From: Flavobacteriaceae bacterium
Lineage (GTDB): Bacteria > Bacteroidota > Bacteroidia > Flavobacteriales > Flavobacteriaceae
Length of the DNA stretch: 64,000 bases
Reading direction: 5' to 3'
NCBI GenBank assembly: GCA_030835825.1
Contig: JAURRA010000017.1
Coordinates: 1-64,000, forward strand
The position numbers were made by a program, and so were the translations under genes. Every line of letters starts with the position of its first letter. Position 1 is the stretch's first letter. The notes below the pieces were generated by a model, which ran no database searches, was not told the origin of the DNA, and saw nothing but the letters and a program-made list of their open reading frames with translations. Below, piece by piece: positions 19,330-31,041 of this stretch.

Positions 19330-20604
19330 TTACAGCAATTCAGCAAGTTGAGAGCTCAAATACCTCCTACTGTATGAAGATGTGTCAAATGCCACTGGTT
19401 CACAGTGACCTGCTTCATAGCTGTCAAAATGATGGCATAACGTATTGACGTTGTCATTCAAATCGTCAGTCATGATTAACGACAAGGGATAATTCTTTAA
19501 AATAGTCCGGACATCCGAATCCTCTGGGGTTACTGCAGCGATAGCATTGCCTGTATGAAGATATTCAAACAATTTGCCTGGTATCACATGCTGCTCGGCT
19601 TCAATTAAAATCAATATTTTGCTATTCATCATATGCGAAACGGCCGATTTGTGGTCTACCACACCCAATAGTTTGGTGTACGCTATTAAGTGTAAAGAAT
19701 TGAGAGTCTGAAGGATAGATTCATCTACCGGTCCTACCAGTCTAATTTCTAAAAGCGATTTGGCCAAGGGGCGCAGTTCTAAAAACCGATTGATCGATTT
19801 CCAAAAAATGACAGGATTCCGATCAGGTAAGAGGGCGCCAACATGGGTCAATGAAAACTTGTCATCTTTTATGGGCGGCATGTCAAAATCGCTACTATCA
19901 AATCCATTGGTGAGTACGGTTATCGGATTTCGACTAATAGCCTTAAAAGAATTGGCCGTATGCCATGAGCTTGTTAAGATATGATCGGCAGAAACAAGTA
20001 CCTCGTGTTCTAAACGTTTGTGCTTCTGTTTGGATTTTTTAGTGAGTCTAAGGTTTTCATGGTATTTAATTTCTGTCCAAGGATCTCTAAAGTCGGCTAT
20101 CCAACGCAGGTGCTTGTGGTGCGCCTTGATTTTCAGGCCTATGAGGTGAAGACTGTGCGGAGGGCCTGTGGTAATAATAGTTTGGAGGTCGGGATGATCA
20201 TTGAGTATCTTTTGCACTTGTTCAAACGCTGGCTTGACCAATCCCACCCTCGCATCAGGAACAAAGAAATTCCCTCGAATAAATACTAACAGTTTTGTAA
20301 GTAAGGACATGGATTTTGATGATAATCCCCCATCACTCAAATGGGTGACTTGTTTTGGTAATAAGGCCTTAACAAAACGAGAGGGTTCTTTCATTTTAGC
20401 GCGATACACCATGAGATTATCATCCAGTTCATGCTTATGGTTCGCGTCTAATATTGGATAAAAGGCCGCGTCTGGTACAAGCACAATGGGCTTAACACCA
20501 AAATCGGGAAGGTATTTTATAAATTTCAGCCAACGCTGAACACCGGGACCGCCTGCGGGAGGCCAGTAGTAAGTTATGATAAGAACTTTTTTTGTTAAAC
20601 TCAT
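19330..20604 (-). CDS. family 4-like glycosyltransferase
   Basis: The 424-residue protein has the GT-B two-Rossmann layout. The N-terminal domain opens with ITYYWPPAGGPGVQRWLKFIKYL, the mid-protein has TTGPPHSLHLIGLKIK and WIADFRDPWTEI, and the C-terminal domain contains LTNGFDSSDFD and the nucleotide-sugar region VIPGKLFEYLHTGNAIAAV. Such enzymes transfer sugars to surface glycans or lipids. Its ATG overlaps the YfhO stop as ATGA, implying coupled expression in the DUF4834-YfhO-glycosyltransferase operon. The donor and acceptor cannot be read from sequence. Confidence 0.85.
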   Translation of the reverse strand: MSLTKKVLIITYYWPPAGGPGVQRWLKFIKYLPDFGVKPIVLVPDAAFYPILDANHKHELDDNLMVYRAKMKEPSRFVKALLPKQVTHLSDGGLSSKSMSLLTKLLVFIRGNFFVPDARVGLVKPAFEQVQKILNDHPDLQTIITTGPPHSLHLIGLKIKAHHKHLRWIADFRDPWTEIKYHENLRLTKKSKQKHKRLEHEVLVSADHILTSSWHTANSFKAISRNPITVLTNGFDSSDFDMPPIKDDKFSLTHVGALLPDRNPVIFWKSINRFLELRPLAKSLLEIRLVGPVDESILQTLNSLHLIAYTKLLGVVDHKSAVSHMMNSKILILIEAEQHVIPGKLFEYLHTGNAIAAVTPEDSDVRTILKNYPLSLIMTDDLNDNVNTLCHHFDSYEAGHCEPVAFDTSSYSRRYLSSQLAELL

Positions 20605-23051
20605 TTAACAAGTTTTTTCTCCTGAAGGAAAAACATAACCGTGCTAATGATTAAAAAAGCAACTAAGGCGATCAAGGAAATGGTTTTGCCGGAGTAAATA
20701 ACTTGAGGGTCGAATCTCATGATTATCGTATGCTTTCCTTTTGGAACTTCAATGCCTCGAAAGGTATAATCAACTCTTTCTATGGGCACCACCTGGCCAT
20801 CGATGGTGGCAATCCAACCATCGGAATAATACATTTCGGAAAATACTGCATATCCATTAAACGCATTATAAGATTCAAAAACCAGTTGATCCATTTGATA
20901 AGAGATCAGCTCTATGGCCTCTTCCCCATTCAAATTGTAAACGCTATTCTCTTGTAAATCAGAGGATAGCACACTGGCTTCCTGTGATGGGTTAATATCA
21001 TTGAGTGAAGCCAAGAATTCGTCTTCGGAAGCAGTGGAAATAAGCTTTTCGACAAACCATGCATGGCCTAAGGCGCCTTCATTTTGATAGGTTACTGACT
21101 TGCCAGTCTCGTCTGTTTGAATAATGTATTTGATATTAAGCAGGTCCAGCACTGATGAATTGTTCTGACTCAAGTGATAATCAAATAAATGTTGTGCTCT
21201 CTTGGGTTTTGCGGCATGATAGCCGCCAAATGCCTTGTGAAAATAGGATGCCTTGGCGCTGTTAAACGGATTATTACTTAAGTCTAAAACCCTAAAGTGG
21301 GTGCTGTCTTTTAGAATGGACTTGTCGGATTGAGAAGCCTGAAATGGCGCACTCATGGCCGATTTGGTCGTAAAATTTTCAGCTGACACATAACGTCTGG
21401 CAACTGTGCTCAAATCGAAAACCACATAACCGAATAATAGTATAATCAATACATTTTTGCGGATAGCCTTGTTGATATAAAAATAGAGCGACAAGATTGC
21501 CAAGGACAACATAACAACAGACCGTATGAGGTCAGATTGGAATAGAGCCTCACGATCCAAGCGCAATGATCTCAGCAAATCTGGGCCATAGGTCGATTTG
21601 ATATAACCGTCTGACGTCCCAACAAAATCAAAACCACTGCCCTTTAAAACATATAACAAGCCGAACAAAATTAAAAAAGATATGCTGGTTTGCTTTAGAT
21701 ATTTGATTTTAACGTGGTCTTCCAATTGATCCGACAATACCAATTTCATTCCTAACATTGCTCCAATTGGAACCAAAAGGCTCAAGATAACTTGGATGGA
21801 TGATACAGCCCTAAATTTATTGTACATGGGAAAATATGTAACGAATAAATTGGTCAGGAATTCGAAGTTTTTACCCCACGAAAGCATCAGAGCGAAAAGG
21901 CAGACACCGAGTAGCCAGTATTTCAATTTTGACTTATCCATTACTAAAAACAGGACAAATAGAAAAACAAGAATAATTCCAAGATATGCGGGAGCTGCGA
22001 CAAAAGGTTGTTCGCCCCAATACATTAACCTTCCTGCAAAGTCAATGGCTTCTTGCTTAGAAATGTCAAAATTTGACAATAGGTATTTTACAGAAGCGGC
22101 GTCGGTTGATAGTTTTTCACTATTGGATCCTCCATAAAGTCCAGGGACTAGTAAATTCAAACTCTCTCCAATGCCATAACTGTATGCCGTAATATAGTCA
22201 AGATCTAATCCTGATTCATGGGATAAAGGCTGGCCGTCTGGGCCTGTGGTGAGCAAGTTGGCACCCCTTGTACTTTCCTTGGCGTATGCTGAAGTTGCTA
22301 AAAGGCCCGTTGCATTCATAGCTAAGGCGAGAATACCAGCAATGAGTCCCAGACCTACGGTTTTAAAATAAAGTTTGATTTGCTGATTTTGAAAGTATTT
22401 AACCGCAAAATAAATCCCGATAAACAATAGGACAAACGCCAAATAATAGGTCATTTGATAGTGATTTGCTGCGATTTCGAGCCCAGAGGCCAAAGTCAGT
22501 AATACAAATCCCAACAGAGGTCTATTCTTGAATAACAGCAGTAAACCAGCCACCACTAAGGGCATGTAGGCAATGGCATGGGCTTTGGCATTGTGCCCTA
22601 CGCCAAGAATGACCAAATGGTAGGTCATGAGCGCGAATCCAACCGCTCCGATAACGGATAAAGCCCTATCCCCTTTCAATACCACCAGCATTAAAATATA
22701 AAATGATAATAAATAAAGGAACATATAGTCTGCAGGTCGCGGTAAAAACCGCAGGCCTTGATCCAATAGTTTTACCCAATGATAGGGATATTTTGCACCT
22801 AATTGGTAGGTAGGCATCCCGCCAAAAGCACTATCAGTCCAGTACACGGCCTCACCCTTTTCGGTCTGGTAGTCCAAGAATTGTTTCGACATGCCTCTGT
22901 ATTGCACAATGTCGGATTGATCCATGACTTTTCCCTCAAGCACGGGGTAGAAATATAAAACTGAACCTAGCGCAAAGCCCAGAATGATCAGAGCATGAGG
23001 CCATACAGCCGATTTAAAAAAAGATGGTAAGGATTTAAAGTTCAAATGCAT
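20601..23051 (-). CDS. YfhO-family multi-spanning membrane protein
   Basis: This 816-residue protein has about a dozen membrane helices. An N-terminal loop reads YFYPVLEGKVMDQSDIVQYRG and GEAVYWTDSAFGGMPTYQ, typical of YfhO. A large C-terminal extracytoplasmic domain follows (about 560-790; for example LNIKYIIQT and YYSDGWIATIDGQ), with a last membrane helix before a KKLVK tail. YfhO proteins are GT-C-like membrane glycosyltransferases linked to glycosylation of cell-wall polymers in Firmicutes. In Bacteroidota the substrate is unknown. Operon placement beside a GT4-like enzyme supports a surface-glycan role. Confidence 0.85.
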   Translation of the reverse strand: MHLNFKSLPSFFKSAVWPHALIILGFALGSVLYFYPVLEGKVMDQSDIVQYRGMSKQFLDYQTEKGEAVYWTDSAFGGMPTYQLGAKYPYHWVKLLDQGLRFLPRPADYMFLYLLSFYILMLVVLKGDRALSVIGAVGFALMTYHLVILGVGHNAKAHAIAYMPLVVAGLLLLFKNRPLLGFVLLTLASGLEIAANHYQMTYYLAFVLLFIGIYFAVKYFQNQQIKLYFKTVGLGLIAGILALAMNATGLLATSAYAKESTRGANLLTTGPDGQPLSHESGLDLDYITAYSYGIGESLNLLVPGLYGGSNSEKLSTDAASVKYLLSNFDISKQEAIDFAGRLMYWGEQPFVAAPAYLGIILVFLFVLFLVMDKSKLKYWLLGVCLFALMLSWGKNFEFLTNLFVTYFPMYNKFRAVSSIQVILSLLVPIGAMLGMKLVLSDQLEDHVKIKYLKQTSISFLILFGLLYVLKGSGFDFVGTSDGYIKSTYGPDLLRSLRLDREALFQSDLIRSVVMLSLAILSLYFYINKAIRKNVLIILLFGYVVFDLSTVARRYVSAENFTTKSAMSAPFQASQSDKSILKDSTHFRVLDLSNNPFNSAKASYFHKAFGGYHAAKPKRAQHLFDYHLSQNNSSVLDLLNIKYIIQTDETGKSVTYQNEGALGHAWFVEKLISTASEDEFLASLNDINPSQEASVLSSDLQENSVYNLNGEEAIELISYQMDQLVFESYNAFNGYAVFSEMYYSDGWIATIDGQVVPIERVDYTFRGIEVPKGKHTIIMRFDPQVIYSGKTISLIALVAFLIISTVMFFLQEKKLVK

Positions 23052-23350: not shown

Positions 23351-23358
23351 TATATTTG
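23351..23358 (+). promoter_or_regulatory. -7 promoter element for the transporter-GNAT pair
   Basis: TATATTTG matches TAnnTTTG and ends 15 bases before the ATG at 23374. It rules against the upstream in-frame TTG at 23356, which lies inside the box. Confidence 0.45.
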
Positions 23359-23373
23359 ATAAAACTATTTATT

Positions 23374-24294
23374 ATGCTTACCAAATGCTCCAAAATATGG
23401 CTCTCAGGACTTATTTTCCTGAGCTTTATCTCTGTTCAAGCCCAATATACAAATCTTATTAATTCTAATCGTCCAGGAGTTTCGCAAGGGGCTTTTGCGG
23501 TTGGTGTTAATGTGGTACAGCTCGAGACTGGAATTAGTGTGGTCAAGGAAGAACGTGTACCCCAAACGGCTTATACTTTGGAGGGCTTGGGGGTGGAATT
23601 TTTAGCGCGCTATGGACTGCTTTGGGAACAGCTAGAAATCCAAGTCGAGGGCACATATCAAAACGACACAAAGACCTATCAAACGGCCTTGGGTTTTTCA
23701 AGTAATAGGGCCAATTTTAAGAGCCTCAGCGCTGGTGTGAAATACCTGATTTTTGATCCTTACAAAAATCCGAACTACGATGCCATTAATTTGAGAAGTT
23801 ATAAGGCCAATCACGGATTCAAATGGAAACACCTCATTCCTGCTGTTTCTGTACTAGCAGGTATCAATTACGATACCAAAAACAATCCTTTTACCTATAA
23901 CCCCTACTCTTCGAATCAAGTTGAGGGCATCAGTCCACAAGCGAGATTAATTACTCAAAACAATTTTAAGGGAGGCTGGGTTTTGGTTACGAATATTTTA
24001 ATGGATCGTATTGGAACGGGCCAATCGGACATGCATTTTCTCGTCACCCTTACCCATGCTATCAATACCACATGGGTTGTTTTTGCCGAAGCACAGGGCA
24101 TTAAAAGCGATCTGTATGCCGATAACTTATTCAGATTTGGTGGCGCCTATCTTTGGAATAGAAATTTTCAAATTGACACCAGTGTCACCTTGAACGCCAA
24201 GGACACGCCAAAGGTCTTTACTTGGGGTGTTGGGGTTTCCTACCGCTTGGATTTTCATCGCGATAAAATTTCCAAAAATGACGCACAACAATGA
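23374..24294 (+). CDS. outer-membrane transporter-like protein (phenol MetA family)
   Basis: The 306-residue precursor has a signal peptide (MLTKCSKIWLSGLIFLSFIS, cleaved after VQAQ) and a repeated pattern of short amphipathic strands typical of an outer-membrane beta-barrel. NSNRPGVSQGAFAVGVNVVQLETG and a C-terminus ending in a WGVGVSYRLDFH strand fit the MetA-pathway phenol-degradation transporter family, often annotated simply as transporter. The substrate is unknown. The stop overlaps the following GNAT gene as ATGA, so the two are translationally coupled. Confidence 0.75.
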   Translation: MLTKCSKIWLSGLIFLSFISVQAQYTNLINSNRPGVSQGAFAVGVNVVQLETGISVVKEERVPQTAYTLEGLGVEFLARYGLLWEQLEIQVEGTYQNDTKTYQTALGFSSNRANFKSLSAGVKYLIFDPYKNPNYDAINLRSYKANHGFKWKHLIPAVSVLAGINYDTKNNPFTYNPYSSNQVEGISPQARLITQNNFKGGWVLVTNILMDRIGTGQSDMHFLVTLTHAINTTWVVFAEAQGIKSDLYADNLFRFGGAYLWNRNFQIDTSVTLNAKDTPKVFTWGVGVSYRLDFHRDKISKNDAQQ

Positions 24295-25412
24295 TAAAAG
24301 TTGAAACCGTCCAGAGTCCTCAAGAATTAAAACTATTTGTAAGATTTCCTTGGCAGCTCTATAAAGGCGATCAGTGTTGGGTACCCCCGATTTTCGAGGA
24401 GGAGTTGAAATTTTTCGACCCTCAACAAAATCCGGTTTTCGAGCATTCAATAGCCCATTTCTTGCTGGCTTACGATGAGCAAAATCAACTGGTTGGCCGT
24501 GCTGTGGCCATAATCAATGACCTCGATGAATCGGTGTTAAATATCAAAAAAATTCGCTTCGGATGGTTTGATTTTATCGATGATCTTGAGGTGAGTCAAG
24601 CGCTTTTAGACAAGATCAAAGCGATCGGCCAAGAACATCACAGGACTTATATGGAAGGACCGATGGGTTTTTCAAATTTAGATAAGGTGGGTGTCTTAAC
24701 CTCTGGTTTCGATAGTATTGGGACCATGGCCAGTTGGCATAATCATCCCTACTATCAAAAACATTATGAGGCCAATGGTTTGACAGTTGAAAAGGAATAT
24801 GTCGAGTGTCGGTTTCCTTTTTCTAATATTGATATTACTAAAGCCAAGAAAGTGTCTAAAATTGTGCGCCACCGATTTGGTTATGCCATAGTTAATCCAC
24901 GCCGTCGAAAAGAAGTCTTTGCCTATGCGGACGATATGTTTAGACTGTTCAACGAATCCTATGCTAAGCTTTCCTCCTATTTGCCCATTACGGATAATGA
25001 AATTGGATATATCAAGAAGAAATTCTTAGGATTTATCGCTGCAGATTTTATCAAATTCGTTTTGGACAAGGACAAAAACATGATTGCCTTTGCTATCGTT
25101 ATGCCACAATTTGCTCATGCGCTTATCAAATCCAAAGGAAAACTGTTGCCATTTGGTTTTTTGAGAATATTGTGGGCCAAGAAGTTCAGTAAAACAGCTG
25201 TTTTCTATTTGATTGGCGTGAGTGAAGCGCATCAAAACAAAGGTGCCACAGCCTTATTATTCGAGTCCTATCACGAGGATTTTTCAAAACGGGGTATGAC
25301 AACCTGCATCCGGACACCCGAATTGGCGACCAATACGGCTATACGACAGCTTTGGAAAGATTTTTCACCTGAAGTGTATAAAACCAGAGCAACCTATTCA
25401 AAAGTGATTTAA
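24291..25412 (+). CDS. GNAT-fold acyltransferase, possibly lipid N-acyltransferase
   Basis: The 373-residue protein belongs to a long GNAT-related family (often misnamed GTP cyclohydrolase in databases). The N-terminal part shows FPWQLYKGDQCWVPP and FFDPQQNPVFEHS; the middle shows MEGPMGFSNLDKVGVL; the C-terminal GNAT segment is FYLIGVSEAHQNKGATALLFE, with an acetyl/acyl-CoA-binding loop. It converges on an alpha-oxoamine synthase gene with shared stop bases (TTAA). Bacterial ceramide synthases characterised in Caulobacter are GNAT-like, so an N-acyltransferase acting on the neighbour's long-chain amine product is an attractive inference. Direct sequence evidence for that substrate is lacking. 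Confidence 0.7.
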   Translation: MIKVETVQSPQELKLFVRFPWQLYKGDQCWVPPIFEEELKFFDPQQNPVFEHSIAHFLLAYDEQNQLVGRAVAIINDLDESVLNIKKIRFGWFDFIDDLEVSQALLDKIKAIGQEHHRTYMEGPMGFSNLDKVGVLTSGFDSIGTMASWHNHPYYQKHYEANGLTVEKEYVECRFPFSNIDITKAKKVSKIVRHRFGYAIVNPRRRKEVFAYADDMFRLFNESYAKLSSYLPITDNEIGYIKKKFLGFIAADFIKFVLDKDKNMIAFAIVMPQFAHALIKSKGKLLPFGFLRILWAKKFSKTAVFYLIGVSEAHQNKGATALLFESYHEDFSKRGMTTCIRTPELATNTAIRQLWKDFSPEVYKTRATYSKVI

Positions 25413-26668
25413 GACTCCATGGCTGCCATAACGGTAGCGGCCATTTTTTTGTAGGTACCATTTTCCAAGCGCTCGCGGATAGCAGAAAAAGCATCTAAGG
25501 TTATGCTAACATCCTCTAGTGTATGAGAAGCTGTTGGAATTAAGCGAAGTAAAATCAAACCTTTTGGTATCACAGGATAGACTACAATAGAGCAGAAAAT
25601 ACCGTGGTTTTCCCTCAAATCTTTTACCAATGCCATGGCTTCGGGAATACTTCCTTTGAGATATACTGGTGTAACACAACTTTGTGTGGTTCCCAAATCA
25701 AAACCACGCTCTCTTAATCCCGATTGCAGAGCTTTGACAATATGCCACAGTTTTTCTTTGTGAGATTTATCACTGCGCAACATATCTAGGCGCTTTAAAG
25801 CGCCTACAACCAGCTGCATTTGTAGTGATTTGGCAAACATTTGTGAGCGCAAATTGTATTTCAAATAGTCCATTATTTCTTTATCCCCAGCGATAAAGGC
25901 TCCTGTACTGGCCATGGACTTGGCGAAAGTAGCAAAGTAAACATCGATATCGTCTTGAACACCTTGTTCTTCTCCTGCACCTGCACCTGTAGCTCCAAGT
26001 GTGCCAAAGCCATGCGCGTCATCCACAAAAAATCTGAAGTTGTATTTCTTTTTTAGGCCAGCGATTTCTTTGAGCCTACCCTGCTCCCCTCGCATGCCAA
26101 AAACACCTTCCGAAATGACCAGAATACCACCGCCGGTTTGTTCGGCCATTTTTGTAGCCCGGTCTAAGTTTTTTTCTAAACTTTCAATATCATTGTGCTT
26201 GTAGGTAAATCGTTTTCCCATGTGCAAACGCACACCATCAATAATACAGGCATGAGCGTCAACGTCATAGACAATGATGTCGTCTTTGCCAACCAAGGCG
26301 TCGATAGTTGACACCATACCCTGATAGCCAAAATTGAGCACATAAGCTGCTTCTTTATTGACAAATGCCGCTAACTCGTTTTGTAATTGCTCGTGTAAAT
26401 CTGTGTGTCCAGACATCATTCTGGCACCCATTGGATAGGCCGATCCATATTTCAGTGCAGCCTCTGCATCGACCTTACGGACCTCTGGATTGTTGGCTAA
26501 GCCCAAATAATCATTAATACTCCAAGTGATAACATCCTTACCGTTGAAACTCATTCGGTTAGAAATTTCGCCCTCTAACTTTGGAAAAACGAAATATCCT
26601 TCGGCATATTCCGCCCATTTTCCTAAAGGACCCTTGTCTCTATATATCTTGTCAAATAGATCTCTCAT
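25409..26668 (-). CDS. alpha-oxoamine synthase, serine palmitoyltransferase type
   Basis: This PLP enzyme condenses an amino acid with an acyl thioester, releasing CO2. The 419-residue protein shows ITWSINDYLGLANNPEV (48-64), H139 in VDAHACIIDG, the cofactor motif FFVDDAHGFGTLG (213-225) and the Schiff-base lysine K250 in ATFAKSMASTGAFIAG. The family includes serine palmitoyltransferase (sphingolipids), capnine-forming cysteate acyltransferases (sulfonolipids) and 2-amino-3-ketobutyrate ligase. Length and motifs favour the lipid enzymes, but serine versus cysteate use cannot be decided by eye. The convergent GNAT acyltransferase supports a lipid role. Confidence 0.8.
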   Translation of the reverse strand: MRDLFDKIYRDKGPLGKWAEYAEGYFVFPKLEGEISNRMSFNGKDVITWSINDYLGLANNPEVRKVDAEAALKYGSAYPMGARMMSGHTDLHEQLQNELAAFVNKEAAYVLNFGYQGMVSTIDALVGKDDIIVYDVDAHACIIDGVRLHMGKRFTYKHNDIESLEKNLDRATKMAEQTGGGILVISEGVFGMRGEQGRLKEIAGLKKKYNFRFFVDDAHGFGTLGATGAGAGEEQGVQDDIDVYFATFAKSMASTGAFIAGDKEIMDYLKYNLRSQMFAKSLQMQLVVGALKRLDMLRSDKSHKEKLWHIVKALQSGLRERGFDLGTTQSCVTPVYLKGSIPEAMALVKDLRENHGIFCSIVVYPVIPKGLILLRLIPTASHTLEDVSITLDAFSAIRERLENGTYKKMAATVMAAMES

Positions 26669-26761: not shown

Positions 26762-27802
26762 TTATTTTAGGTACTGGATTGTTTTTTCCGATATGGCGTT
26801 TTTACTGTCGAAAAACCCTTGTTCTTCCATCCAACTGTCGCTATAAATTTTACTCATATAGCGCGACCCGTGATCGGGAAAAATGACGACTACCTTATCA
26901 GTTGGTTTGAAATACCCTTCGTCGTTTAACTGAGTTACAGCTTGCCAAGCGGCTCCGCAGGTATACCCTACAAAAATCGCTTCTTCTCTTGAAATTCGTC
27001 TTGCCGTGTGGGCACTCTCCTCATCGGTTACCTTCACAAAGCGATCGATGACCTCGAAGTCAGTAGCGGTAGGAATTAAATTCTTTCCTAATCCTTCGAT
27101 GCGGTAGGGATAGATTTCGTCGGCGTCAAATTCTTTGGTTTCGTGATACTTTTTCAAAACAGAACCATAAGCATCAACCCCAATAATTTTAATTTTCGGA
27201 TTTTTTTCTTTGAGGTATTTTGCAGTTCCTGAAATTGTACCACCGGTACCACTACAAGCCACCAAATGGGTTATTTGCCCGTTCATTTGTTCCCAAATTT
27301 CGGGTCCTGTAGTCTGATAATGGGCATCGACATTGAGAGAATTGAAATATTGGTTGATATAAACCGATCCCTTAATTTCTTCGTGTAATCTTTTGGCTAC
27401 CTGGTAGTATGATCTTGGATCATCTGCACTGACGTTGGCCGGACAGACGTACACCTTAGCCCCCATGGACTTTAGCATATCTATTTTATCAGATGAAGAT
27501 TTTGAGCTAACGGCCAGAATACAGTCATAACCCTTAATAATACTAACCATCGCAACACTAAAACCTGTATTACCTGAGGTGGTTTCAATAATGGTGTCTC
27601 CTGGCTTTAATTTACCTTGTCTTTCAGCTTCTTCGACAATGTGCAGTGCAATTCTATCCTTAGTGGAATGCCCTGGATTGAAGCCTTCTAGTTTGGCAAA
27701 AAAGGAACCTTTCATGTCGGTAGTGATTTTTTGAAGCTTCACCATGGGAGTCTCCCCGATTAAGTCTAAAACACTATCCGTGATTTGGTTGTTTTTTTTC
27801 AT
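26762..27802 (-). CDS. cysteine synthase / cystathionine beta-synthase family enzyme
   Basis: This is a 346-residue type II PLP enzyme. K48 in [12 protein letters not shown] is the cofactor lysine, [13 protein letters not shown] holds the substrate loop, and [16 protein letters not shown] binds the PLP phosphate. The HSTKDR loop and the C-terminal [15 protein letters not shown] resemble cystathionine beta-synthase-like proteins more than CysK; no CBS domains are present. It probably makes cysteine or cystathionine from an activated serine or serine. I start at the ATG at 27802, where homologues begin; the frame extends 14 codons upstream without a good start. It stands between two minus-strand genes without tight coupling. 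Confidence 0.88.
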
Positions 27803-27865
27803 AAAATACCATTTAGATTGAGGATCAATTCTAAAGGAAAGCAAATTTACATAAATTTTTGAAAT

Positions 27866-29989
27866 TTATTCTTTTTGGCCTTCCAAATCCAAGAAAAAGG
27901 CATACTCCTCTGCCACTTCTTTTAAAGCCTCAAAGCGACCAGAAGCTCCGCCATGACCTGCTTCCATATTGGTATGCAACAATAAGATATTATTGTCAGT
28001 TTTGTATGCTCTTAATTTGGCAACCCATTTGGCCGGTTCCCAATATTGAACTTGGGAATCGTGCAATCCTGTTGTTACTAGCATATTGGGATAATCCTGT
28101 GCACTGAGATTGTCATAAGGCGAATATGACTTGATATAATTATAATAGGCCAGGTCATTGGGATTGCCCCATTCGTCATACTCCCCTGTTGTCAAGGGAA
28201 TACTGTCATCGAGCATGGTGGTAACGACATCTACGAAAGGCACTGCTGCAATAACCCCTTTGTAGAGCTCAGGAGCCATATTGACAACAGCACCCATGAG
28301 CAAACCACCTGCTGATCCTCCCATGGCATAGTGATGATCGGCAGAGGTATAGCCTTCGGCGATTAAAAATTTCGAACAATCGATGAAATCCGTGAAGGTG
28401 TTCATTTTGGTGAAAAGCTTGCCAGCTTCATACCAAGGTCGACCTAAATATTGTCCACCACGAATATGAGCGATTGCAAATACAAACCCCCTATCGAGCA
28501 AGCTCAGTCTGGTACTAGAAAATGAAGGATTCATCGTGGCCCCGTAAGACCCATAACCATAGAGCAATAAGGGTGTGTCTTGATTGAGCTCAGTGTCTTT
28601 TCTGTGTGCCAAAGATATGGCCACCTTAGTGCCGTCTGTGGCCGTGGCCCAAATACGTTTGGAAGTGTAATTGTTCTTGTCAAACTGACCACCTAAAACC
28701 TTTTGCTCTTTAAGTATCTTTTTTTCTTGAGACGCCATGTCGAACTCAATGACAGATGACGGGGTTGTCATATCATTGAAGACATAGCGCAGTTTAGACG
28801 TGTCGAAATCCAAATTGGTAGATGTGTACACTGAATAGGTTTCGCTGTCAAAAGGGAGGTAATAGTCATTCGTATCATCCCATCGTTTGATGTGAATTCT
28901 TCGGAGTCCATTATAGCGTTCGCTGACCACCAAATGGTCCTTAAAGATATCAATACCCTCTAGCAATACATCTGGTCTGTGCGGAATAACGTCTTTCCAA
29001 TTTGACCTGTCTGTGGCTGTCACTAGGGTTGACATCAACTTAAAATTAGTGGCGTTATCGGCATTGGTAACCACATAAAATTTATCGCCATAATGACTGA
29101 CGTCATACTCTAACCCCCGAGTTCTTGGTTGTACAATTTTGAAATTGTCATCCGGATTGTTAGCGTTGATGAATCTTACCTCGCTCGATAAAGTGCTGTA
29201 TGATCCAACAAAAATGTATTGTTCGGATTTGGATTTGCTCACCCAAGTATTGAAAGTTTCATCTTCTTCGAAAAAAACCGATTGGTCTTGAGTTGTTGAT
29301 TCACCCAATTTGTGTTTTAATATTCTTTCAGACCGCAAGGTTGTGGGGTTCTTGAGGGTGTAAAACAGCGTTTTATTGTCGTTAGCAAAGGTGCTGCCGC
29401 CAGTTGTGTTGTCAATTTTGTCAGGGTATATTTCGCCAGTTACTAAATTTTTAATTCTTAGGGTGTACTGACGTCTGGAAACTGTATCGATACCAAATGC
29501 TGCTAAGGTATTGTCAGGGCTGATTTCAATGCCATTGAGTTGGTAATAGTCATGACCTTCCGCCATTTGATTCACATCAAACATGACTTCCTCTTTGGCT
29601 TCCATGCTCCCCTTTTTACGGCAAAAAATGGGATATTGTTTGCCAGTTTCGTAGCGGGTGTAATACCAATATTGATTGTTAAAATAAGGTACAGAACTAT
29701 CATCTTCCTTAATTCGCGATTTCATTTCTTCGAACAAACTTTTTTGAAAATCTTTAGTATGTCCCGTGATCTGATCGTTGTAGGCGTTTTCTTGATTCAA
29801 GTAATCAATGACTTCTTGATTTTCTCTTTCGTTGAGCCAGTAATAATTGTCTATTCTAACATCTCCATGTTTTTCTAATTCAGTTGGTATCTTTTTAGCT
29901 ATCGGAGGTGTTGGCATAGTTTCTTTGTTTTTGTTGCAAGAGGTCGCAAAAATAAAACTAATTGCAACAAGAAAGGTTGTGGTTTTCAT
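27866..29989 (-). CDS. S9 prolyl oligopeptidase / oligopeptidase B lipoprotein
   Basis: The 707-residue protein is a serine peptidase of family S9A. A lipoprotein signal peptide ends in the lipobox ATSC (cysteine 18), so it is anchored in the envelope. The beta-propeller (about 80-420) precedes the alpha/beta-hydrolase domain with the nucleophile elbow GGSAGGLLMG, the aspartate region TGLHDSQVQYWEPAKW and the histidine in MEAGHGGASGR. The oligopeptidase B group cleaves peptides after basic residues. Length is standard. It probably works on peptides in the periplasm. Confidence 0.9.
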   Translation of the reverse strand: MKTTTFLVAISFIFATSCNKNKETMPTPPIAKKIPTELEKHGDVRIDNYYWLNERENQEVIDYLNQENAYNDQITGHTKDFQKSLFEEMKSRIKEDDSSVPYFNNQYWYYTRYETGKQYPIFCRKKGSMEAKEEVMFDVNQMAEGHDYYQLNGIEISPDNTLAAFGIDTVSRRQYTLRIKNLVTGEIYPDKIDNTTGGSTFANDNKTLFYTLKNPTTLRSERILKHKLGESTTQDQSVFFEEDETFNTWVSKSKSEQYIFVGSYSTLSSEVRFINANNPDDNFKIVQPRTRGLEYDVSHYGDKFYVVTNADNATNFKLMSTLVTATDRSNWKDVIPHRPDVLLEGIDIFKDHLVVSERYNGLRRIHIKRWDDTNDYYLPFDSETYSVYTSTNLDFDTSKLRYVFNDMTTPSSVIEFDMASQEKKILKEQKVLGGQFDKNNYTSKRIWATATDGTKVAISLAHRKDTELNQDTPLLLYGYGSYGATMNPSFSSTRLSLLDRGFVFAIAHIRGGQYLGRPWYEAGKLFTKMNTFTDFIDCSKFLIAEGYTSADHHYAMGGSAGGLLMGAVVNMAPELYKGVIAAVPFVDVVTTMLDDSIPLTTGEYDEWGNPNDLAYYNYIKSYSPYDNLSAQDYPNMLVTTGLHDSQVQYWEPAKWVAKLRAYKTDNNILLLHTNMEAGHGGASGRFEALKEVAEEYAFFLDLEGQKE

Positions 29990-30015
29990 TTGTTTGATGG
30001 TTTGTAGGTTGATTG

Positions 30016-31041
30016 TTAAGAATGAATGGTTTTCAAAGTTTTGAGTACGATTTCATGTTTATCATCTGTATAGTCCAAATGGGTTACAATTCTAAATTTA
30101 CCTTCACCCATTCCTGAAATTCGGATGTTATTTTCTGCTAATTGGTTTACAAGCCGGTTAGCGTCCAAATCAGCGTTTACTTCAAATATAACGATATTTG
30201 TCTGAACGGGAACAATATTTTTCACGTAGGCACAGGATTGTAGTACACTGGCAATGTCACTTGCTTTTTGATGGTCTTCTGCCAACCGCTCCAGGTGGTG
30301 GTCTAGGGCATACATTCCAGCGGCCGCCAAAATACCTATCTGTCGCATCCCACCTCCTAAGACTTTTCTCACGCGAATGGCATCTTCCATAATGGCCTCA
30401 TCGCCAACTAAAATGGAACCAACAGGACAACCCAGTCCTTTACTCAGGCAAACAGAAATGGTGTCGAACATATGACCAAAAGTTTCAGGGCTTTCTCCAG
30501 TTGCCACTAAGGCGTTCCACAACCGAGCACCGTCAAGGTGGTAGCCCAACTGATGTTTCTCACAAACCGCTCTTATGGCCTTCAATTCATCGACATTCCA
30601 GCAAGAACCGCCACCCTTATTAGTGGTATTCTCGGCAGTGATCAAACTGGTTTTTGGACTGTGGTAAAAATCGGGAGGATGAATAGCAGCTTCCGCTTGC
30701 GCTGCTGTAAACATGCCTTGGTGGCCATCGACCAAAGTTGTCGTTACACCGCTATTAAAAGCAATGCCCCCACCTTCGTAATTGTGAACGTGACCATATT
30801 TATCGCAAATCAAAGCTTCGCCAGGGCGGGTATGCAACTTAATGCCTGCCTGATTGGCCATGGTTCCAGATGGAAAAAACAATGCCCGTTTTTTACCAAA
30901 CATGGCAGCGACCCGCTCCTCTAAGCGGTTGACAGTTTCATCTTCTTTATAAACATCGTCACCCACCACTGCATGGTGCATGGCCTCTCTCATGCCAGGT
31001 GTTGGTACTGTAACGGTATCGGAACGTAAATCTATGTTCAT
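30016..31041 (-). CDS. ltaE: low-specificity L-threonine aldolase
   Basis: This PLP enzyme splits threonine or allo-threonine into glycine and acetaldehyde. The 341-residue protein starts with DLRSDTVTVPTPGMREAM, has ALFFPSGTMANQAGI (53-67), the aspartate motif YHLDGARLWNA and the PLP lysine in SVCLSKGLGCPVGSIL. Length and motifs are typical of the GntG/LtaE family. It lies 26 bases upstream of the S9 peptidase gene on the same strand, and the two may be co-transcribed for peptide and amino-acid use. Confidence 0.92.
   Translation of the reverse strand: MNIDLRSDTVTVPTPGMREAMHHAVVGDDVYKEDETVNRLEERVAAMFGKKRALFFPSGTMANQAGIKLHTRPGEALICDKYGHVHNYEGGGIAFNSGVTTTLVDGHQGMFTAAQAEAAIHPPDFYHSPKTSLITAENTTNKGGGSCWNVDELKAIRAVCEKHQLGYHLDGARLWNALVATGESPETFGHMFDTISVCLSKGLGCPVGSILVGDEAIMEDAIRVRKVLGGGMRQIGILAAAGMYALDHHLERLAEDHQKASDIASVLQSCAYVKNIVPVQTNIVIFEVNADLDANRLVNQLAENNIRISGMGEGKFRIVTHLDYTDDKHEIVLKTLKTIHS

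Follow-up and report, generated by a model that had tools for sequence, protein, structure and literature searches.

Gliding motility, host inflammation and the development of choanoflagellates have been linked to the sulfonolipids of Bacteroidota (PMC11211663, in the part available; also eLife). The steps to capnine are assigned to CapA, CapB and CapC in the accessible text of PMC10191378, and that of PMC12927429 describes capnine lipids from CapA, CapB and CapC alone. N-acylation is mentioned without a gene in the accessible text of PMC9304779 and PMC10191378. The literature gives genes for cysteate synthase, cysteate-fatty acyltransferase (CFAT; CapB or SulA) and 3-ketocapnine reductase; none for a capnine N-acyltransferase was found in the parts available, where subscription journals are thinly covered and print may hold more. 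For the sphingolipids, the excerpts available group yghO and Caulobacter CC_1154 together for the acyl-CoA N-acyltransferase that acts in dihydroceramide synthesis (PMC9386255), name CC_1154 CerS (PMC11324152), describe a Caulobacter acyltransferase bCerS (PMC11087976), and give a CerS locus tag, BF9343_4218 (PMC10865984, the sole paper found to use it), which is a possible member of the family treated here. The present analysis concerns a GNAT acyltransferase gene that converges on a gene for a pyridoxal 5'-phosphate (PLP)-dependent enzyme in a Flavobacteriaceae bacterium. The window is the whole stretch analysed, i.e., positions 1 to 64,000 (64,000 nt) of contig JAURRA010000017.1 in assembly GCA_030835825.1.

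The locus almost certainly serves sulfonolipid (capnine) synthesis, with CapA and CFAT as ordinary members of the known pathway, judging by their sequences. The GNAT is likely, from its sequence, the capnine N-acyltransferase, and we consider it probable that it N-acylates capnine or 3-ketocapnine in one pathway with CapA and CFAT. The original prediction had proposed a sphingolipid or sulfonolipid module. The open reading frames, the convergent arrangement and the ATGA overlap between an outer-membrane barrel gene and the GNAT gene are as it described them, read from the sequence. Its sulfonolipid alternative stands, as the PLP enzyme is a CFAT with a CapA gene adjacent, a gene absent from that prediction. 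The sphingolipid alternative is not supported: in the window's genome (G000; 1.62 Mb, 30 contigs, completeness 95%) no serine palmitoyltransferase (SPT) was found with the SPT model at E 1e-20, the sole matches being the CFAT (293.4 bits) and a 2-amino-3-ketobutyrate CoA ligase (KBL, 335.5 bits).

The PLP enzyme is, by its sequence, a cysteate-fatty acyltransferase. The best sequence match in the PDB is 28eh, annotated as 'Cysteate-C-fatty acyltransferase' (E 1.5e-204), followed by 7u7h (E 4.7e-171), which we take to be the structure of SulA from Alistipes finegoldii. Other members of the superfamily are more distant, i.e., SPT 3a2b (E 1.6e-71), KBL 1fc4 (E 5.8e-55) and BioF 5vnx (E 5.5e-42). 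The predicted K250 and DAHG motif are present (D217-A-H-G220), and the positions shared by SulA and SPT are kept (N52, H139, D216, H219, K250 and R375). According to the accessible text of PMC9304779, SulA of A. finegoldii is marked off from SPT by Lys281, which is an alanine in SPT. The window CFAT has K280 at this SulA-specific position, aligned with the Lys of 7u7h and the Ala of 3a2b. Phylogeny, the check proposed for the 419-residue enzyme, places it in a CFAT clade of 31 rows (SH-aLRT 100) and not in KBL clades, in a tree whose outgroup rows are partly long-branched according to a warning of the tool. This and the other trees below are quick trees with no bootstrap. On the SPT model NF047600 the window CFAT scores about 293 bits (293.4-293.7), below the cut-off of 640. 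Just 4 of 148 genomes drawn across the phylum (the phylum sample) pass this cut-off; the complete SPT rows counted in that sample, among the matches listed, score 452-751 bits. The identity as SPT is thus rejected by the PDB matches, K280, the sub-cut-off model score and the CFAT clade.

The CapA protein passes the curated cut-off of its model (634.6 bits, cut-off 600). CapA and CFAT lie on one strand, with CapA 93 bp upstream of CFAT. When compared with the CapA/CapB capnine system and SulA, both enzymes are present and adjacent, the SulA residues including the specific lysine are conserved, and the locus shows no notable difference. No 3-ketocapnine reductase gene is found in the CapA-CFAT pair of the window. 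This is unsurprising because, according to the accessible text of PMC11211663, the 3-ketocapnine reductase genes tested there lie apart from the cfat and cysteate synthase genes. The best candidate in the genome is a short-chain dehydrogenase/reductase (SDR) at G000:C22:14764-15552, which scores 229 bits on the model for ketosphinganine reductase and so stays under the cut-off of 400.

The GNAT protein is a well supported relative of the ceramide synthase family, as judged from sequence comparison. It has 28% identity to E. coli BL21 YghO over the full length (pairwise E 2e-40), and hhalign with profile A1 gives a probability of 100. Conserved glycines, G123-P124 and N348 are common to the two proteins. 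In E. coli BL21, yghO adjoins genes for a fatty acyl-AMP ligase, an epimerase/dehydratase, an acyl carrier protein (ACP) and spt. Homology over the full length is the likeness to the YghO/CC_1154 system. The differences are that identity to YghO is only 28%, with SPT-adjacent relatives closer at 33-37%, and that the synthase linked to the window GNAT is a CFAT in a genome where no SPT was found; the window GNAT is therefore treated as a variant and not filed as a ceramide synthase. The original prediction had likened the GNAT to bacterial ceramide synthases. The YghO homology and the SPT-adjacent relatives bear this likeness out and strengthen the proposal of N-acylation, which itself we infer.

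The window GNAT gives no NCBIfam match at E 0.01, its relatives give weak matches to generic acetyltransferases, and YghO itself has no NCBIfam match at E 1e-10. As a single sequence the GNAT has no PDB match at E 1; its profile gives weak PDB matches, the best of which is an acetyltransferase (E 0.0057). Pfam at E 0.1 gives a single match, PF00583 (17.1 bits, below the cut-off of 20.7), and this family is found more firmly among the relatives (15 of 23 at E 0.01, best 1.4e-9). The AlphaFold2 model (68 rows) has a mean predicted local distance difference test (pLDDT) of 91.6 and a predicted template modelling score (pTM) of 0.88. It aligns over the whole length with the tandem GNATs 7q3a (Z 23.1, root-mean-square deviation (rmsd) 3.4, 304 aligned) and 5kf1 (Z 21.7, rmsd 3.5, 299 aligned), and less closely with N-myristoyltransferase 1iyl (Z 14.7, rmsd 5.3, 290 aligned). 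The predicted structure has two GNAT domains in one chain, in agreement with the long GNAT-fold protein proposed at the outset. The substrate cannot be deduced from a fold held in common, and the sequence homology to YghO is more telling. Making an N-acyl amide lipid would be common to the window GNAT and the glycine N-acyltransferase GlsB of Bacteroides (PMC10191378, in part); in Pfam at E 0.1 the window GNAT matched PF00583 alone.

Linkage of GNAT and CFAT was determined in a family sample of 119 other genomes with the same family label, G000 being left out, counting GNAT matches at E 8.9e-71 or better and alpha-oxoamine synthase (AOS) matches of at least 57% identity. A strong GNAT is present in 105 of these genomes and a strong CFAT in 116; 104 have both. 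In 81 of the 104 genomes the two genes are no more than 6 kb apart, and they are convergent in 81 of 81, with a median gap of 78 bp; in the others they are far apart on one contig (7 genomes) or on different contigs (16 genomes). This recurrence shows that the arrangement in the window is not due to chance. Six weaker GNAT matches of the family sample were fetched, and all fall in clade B (see below). A second set, the named loci, holds the best 80 of 563 GNAT relatives, which are 49-55% identical to the window GNAT and whose names we take to be mostly those of Flavobacteriaceae genera; on this basis G000 would be a small member of that family. CFAT is beside GNAT in 56 of the 80, and 3 of the other 24 loci end within 2.3 kb. 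Among the 56, CapA is shown in 34; 4 have no room for it, and 18 are without CapA despite 2.6-6.6 kb beyond CFAT. In these 18 loci GNAT still adjoins CFAT. The GNAT lies by CFAT in the cultured laboratory strain [Flexibacter] sp. ATCC 35103 (L208) as well. The junction of GNAT with CFAT is both old and frequent, and it can outlast the CapA-CFAT junction.

Across the phylum sample, a strong GNAT (best E < 1e-60, so that G183 at 1.4e-13 and G216 at 4.9e-40 are counted as lacking) is present in 137 of the 141 genomes that have SPT, CFAT or both, vs 2 of the 7 with neither (Fisher p 4.6e-6, with no correction for kinship; one family accounts for four of the seven). Adjacency to SPT was counted with rows of at least 399 bits; rows of 398 or less were dropped, including second copies in G122, G127, G169 and G177, and the genome's own CFAT was left out. 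Among the 150 GNAT matches listed, 50 have an SPT no more than 10 kb away; each of these 50 shares its strand with the SPT, and 49 lie within 300 bp of it. Nine other GNAT matches listed, the window excluded, are near a CFAT; eight of these are convergent with it and belong to the window's family, and one (G196) is on the same strand at 6.9 kb.

A quick tree was made of 87 GNAT rows from chosen loci (L001 and L071-L099 were left out, L002-L030 were thinned to 8 rows, and L116 and L145 were lost to the open reading frame filter), and the clade lists were typed from this tree. It has a clade A of 42 rows, which includes the window GNAT, a clade B of 26 rows and 19 remaining S rows, mostly SPT-adjacent. 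Clade A stays apart with a support of 100 when YghO is added. In the nine rows compared, identity to YghO is 33-37% for S, 27-28% for A and 24-25% for B. The 19 S rows are all in SPT genomes. The fetched clade B rows (26 of 26, from 23 genomes) are all in CFAT genomes, and SPT is found in 5 of the 17 of those genomes searched. Outside the window's family, clade A has 17 rows, 10 of which are in CFAT genomes. One acyltransferase family of Bacteroidota may thus comprise three lineages, one kept with SPT and two (the clades of the window and of G116) recruited to CFAT. We lean towards this view, in which the window GNAT would be the missing fourth sulfonolipid enzyme, a capnine or 3-ketocapnine N-acyltransferase derived from the bacterial ceramide synthase family, and the window clade would, within its family, have an outer-membrane barrel of its own as partner.

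Several loci of these clades have gene arrangements of their own. In G116 (L031 8685-12919) a divergent GNAT of clade B heads a same-strand run that also holds an SDR, a CapA-like gene scoring 373 bits (under the cut-off) and a CFAT 61% identical to that of the window; this run could be a complete sulfonolipid operon. In G196 (L123 10596-14602) a clade A GNAT heads a same-strand run of enoyl-ACP-reductase-like, FabZ-like and FabF-like genes and a gene that by eye is an ACP, with the CFAT 6.9 kb off. This run would fit an acyl-ACP donor and might supply a special acyl-ACP. An SDR gene and a gene that is cupin-like by eye lie between CFAT and CapA in G030 (L039 10318-13444), and genes resembling this pair by eye adjoin the clade B GNAT in L032 and L033. 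The AOS of L033 that is labelled 'S' (29% identity) lies in what we take to be a biotin cluster, so it is probably not an SPT.

In the proposed pathway, CapA would make cysteate and CFAT would join cysteate with an acyl-ACP (acyl thioester) to give 3-ketocapnine. A reductase encoded elsewhere, for which the SDR noted above is a candidate, would convert this to capnine. The tandem GNAT would put a second acyl chain on the amine of capnine or 3-ketocapnine and yield an N-acylated sulfonolipid. The identities of CapA and CFAT, the GNAT family, the predicted fold and the genome linkage are read from sequence (Table 1). The substrate of the GNAT, its acyl donor and the choice of reductase are what we infer.

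Table 1. Features of the locus, with positions in the window
Feature	Position	Strand	Description	Basis
Barrel gene	23356-24294; likely start ATG 23374	+	outer-membrane beta-barrel, 12 strands	PF13557 and AlphaFold2 model
GNAT gene	24291-25412, 373 aa	+	acyltransferase with tandem GNAT domains, related to YghO and bacterial ceramide synthases; candidate for capnine N-acylation	
CFAT (CapB/SulA) gene	25409-26668, 419 aa	-	PLP-dependent cysteate-fatty acyltransferase	
CapA gene	26762-27844; likely start ATG 27802, 346 aa	-	cysteate synthase	NF053679
ATGA	24291-24294	+	stop-start overlap of barrel and GNAT genes	from sequence
TTAA	25409-25412	.	overlapping stop codons of convergent GNAT and CFAT genes	from sequence
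Membrane protein gene	20601-23051		presumably YfhO-like; divergent from barrel gene	
Oligopeptidase B-like gene and GntG-family PLP aldolase gene	27866-31041			GntG 371 bits, cut-off 230

The barrel protein matches PF13557 (Phenol_MetA_deg, 101.8 bits), and its AlphaFold2 model (pLDDT 86.1) is nearest to FapF (Z 21.1, rmsd 3.1, 228 aligned) and a COG4313 channel (Z 20.2, rmsd 2.9, 228 aligned), followed by FadL (Z 14.8, rmsd 3.8, 230 aligned). The barrel might help to place or export the lipid. The proposed coupling of the barrel to the GNAT gene holds widely, as a barrel gene is upstream of GNAT on the same strand in 78 of the 80 named loci. The ATGA overlap is found in the window and in a relative of the same genus; 27 further family loci that contain both genes have them -1 to 107 bp apart. 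A relative of the YfhO-like gene is present in 73 of the 73 named loci with room for it.

This close association of barrel and GNAT is also the basis of the strongest alternative, in which the two genes are an unrelated conserved unit beside a real CapA-CFAT pair, the GNAT acylates some other amine (an amino acid, a peptide or an envelope sugar), with the barrel transporting the product. We regard this as unlikely, yet of some weight. The barrel is the tighter partner of GNAT (see below), and in the 12 fetched family loci with GNAT away from CFAT it is kept in 11, with the YfhO-like gene in 9 of these 11. Members of clade A occur without CFAT, and the neighbourhood is largely conserved anyway. 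Since CapA and oligopeptidase B by CFAT and the YfhO-like gene by the barrel are conserved too, a proof from synteny alone is weak: the junction connects two blocks that are each stable, and a shared function does not follow from it alone. However, an unrelated unit does not agree with the full-length homology to YghO, the SPT-adjacent relatives and the co-occurrence of GNAT with SPT or CFAT across the phylum, nor with the GNAT that stays by CFAT in the 18 named loci with no visible CapA.

Further observations weigh against capnine N-acylation by the window GNAT. The GNAT and CFAT genes are convergent and are therefore not one transcript. Retention of partners in the 80 named loci is 78 for the barrel vs 56 for CFAT. 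Of 19 fetched CFAT loci with GNAT absent or elsewhere, 17 keep CapA and oligopeptidase B, the latter not known to have a role in lipids, and 13 keep the GntG gene. GNAT is missing at E 1e-5 from 9 of the 116 CFAT genomes of the family sample (2 of the 9 are only 81-83% complete), and in five of the nine (L052, L053, L055, L056 and L057) the barrel is directly beside CFAT. Of the 17 clade A rows outside the window's family, 7 are in SPT-only genomes. These form a subclade (L105, L106, L108, L111, L112, L113 and L114), so that the substrate cannot be read from the clade, and the link of clade A to capnine is not a strict one. The family comparison, moreover, was made with YghO and not with Caulobacter CC_1154 itself. 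As a separate observation, some genomes of the SPT-only subclade have a second, SPT-adjacent GNAT. On the supporting side, a clade A GNAT of G152 has an SPT, one above the curated cut-off, at a distance of 35 bp. Among the 12 family CFAT genomes with no strong GNAT, three (G022, G089 and G116) hold a clade B member.

That the GNAT is a plain ceramide synthase for serine-derived sphingolipids would agree with its resemblance to the YghO family and with the SPT-adjacent relatives, but it is highly improbable in view of the SPT search of the 95% complete genome, which at E 1e-20 returned only the CFAT and KBL, both below the cut-off of 640. The PLP enzyme as a KBL or BioF, in a locus for amino-acid or biotin metabolism, can practically be dismissed: it shares the alpha-oxoamine synthase family and matches the models below their cut-offs (KBL models NF005394, 274.2 bits vs 460, and TIGR01822, 230.1 vs 493; BioF, 269 vs 426), but it has K280, it falls in the CFAT clade, and a separate true KBL is found elsewhere in the genome (TIGR01822, 685 bits).

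If the GNAT does N-acylate capnine or 3-ketocapnine, free capnine, or else a different enzyme at work, is to be expected in the CFAT strains that lack it. With a candidate gene beside CFAT in most of the sampled genomes of a large family, the N-acylation step of sulfonolipid synthesis becomes directly testable.

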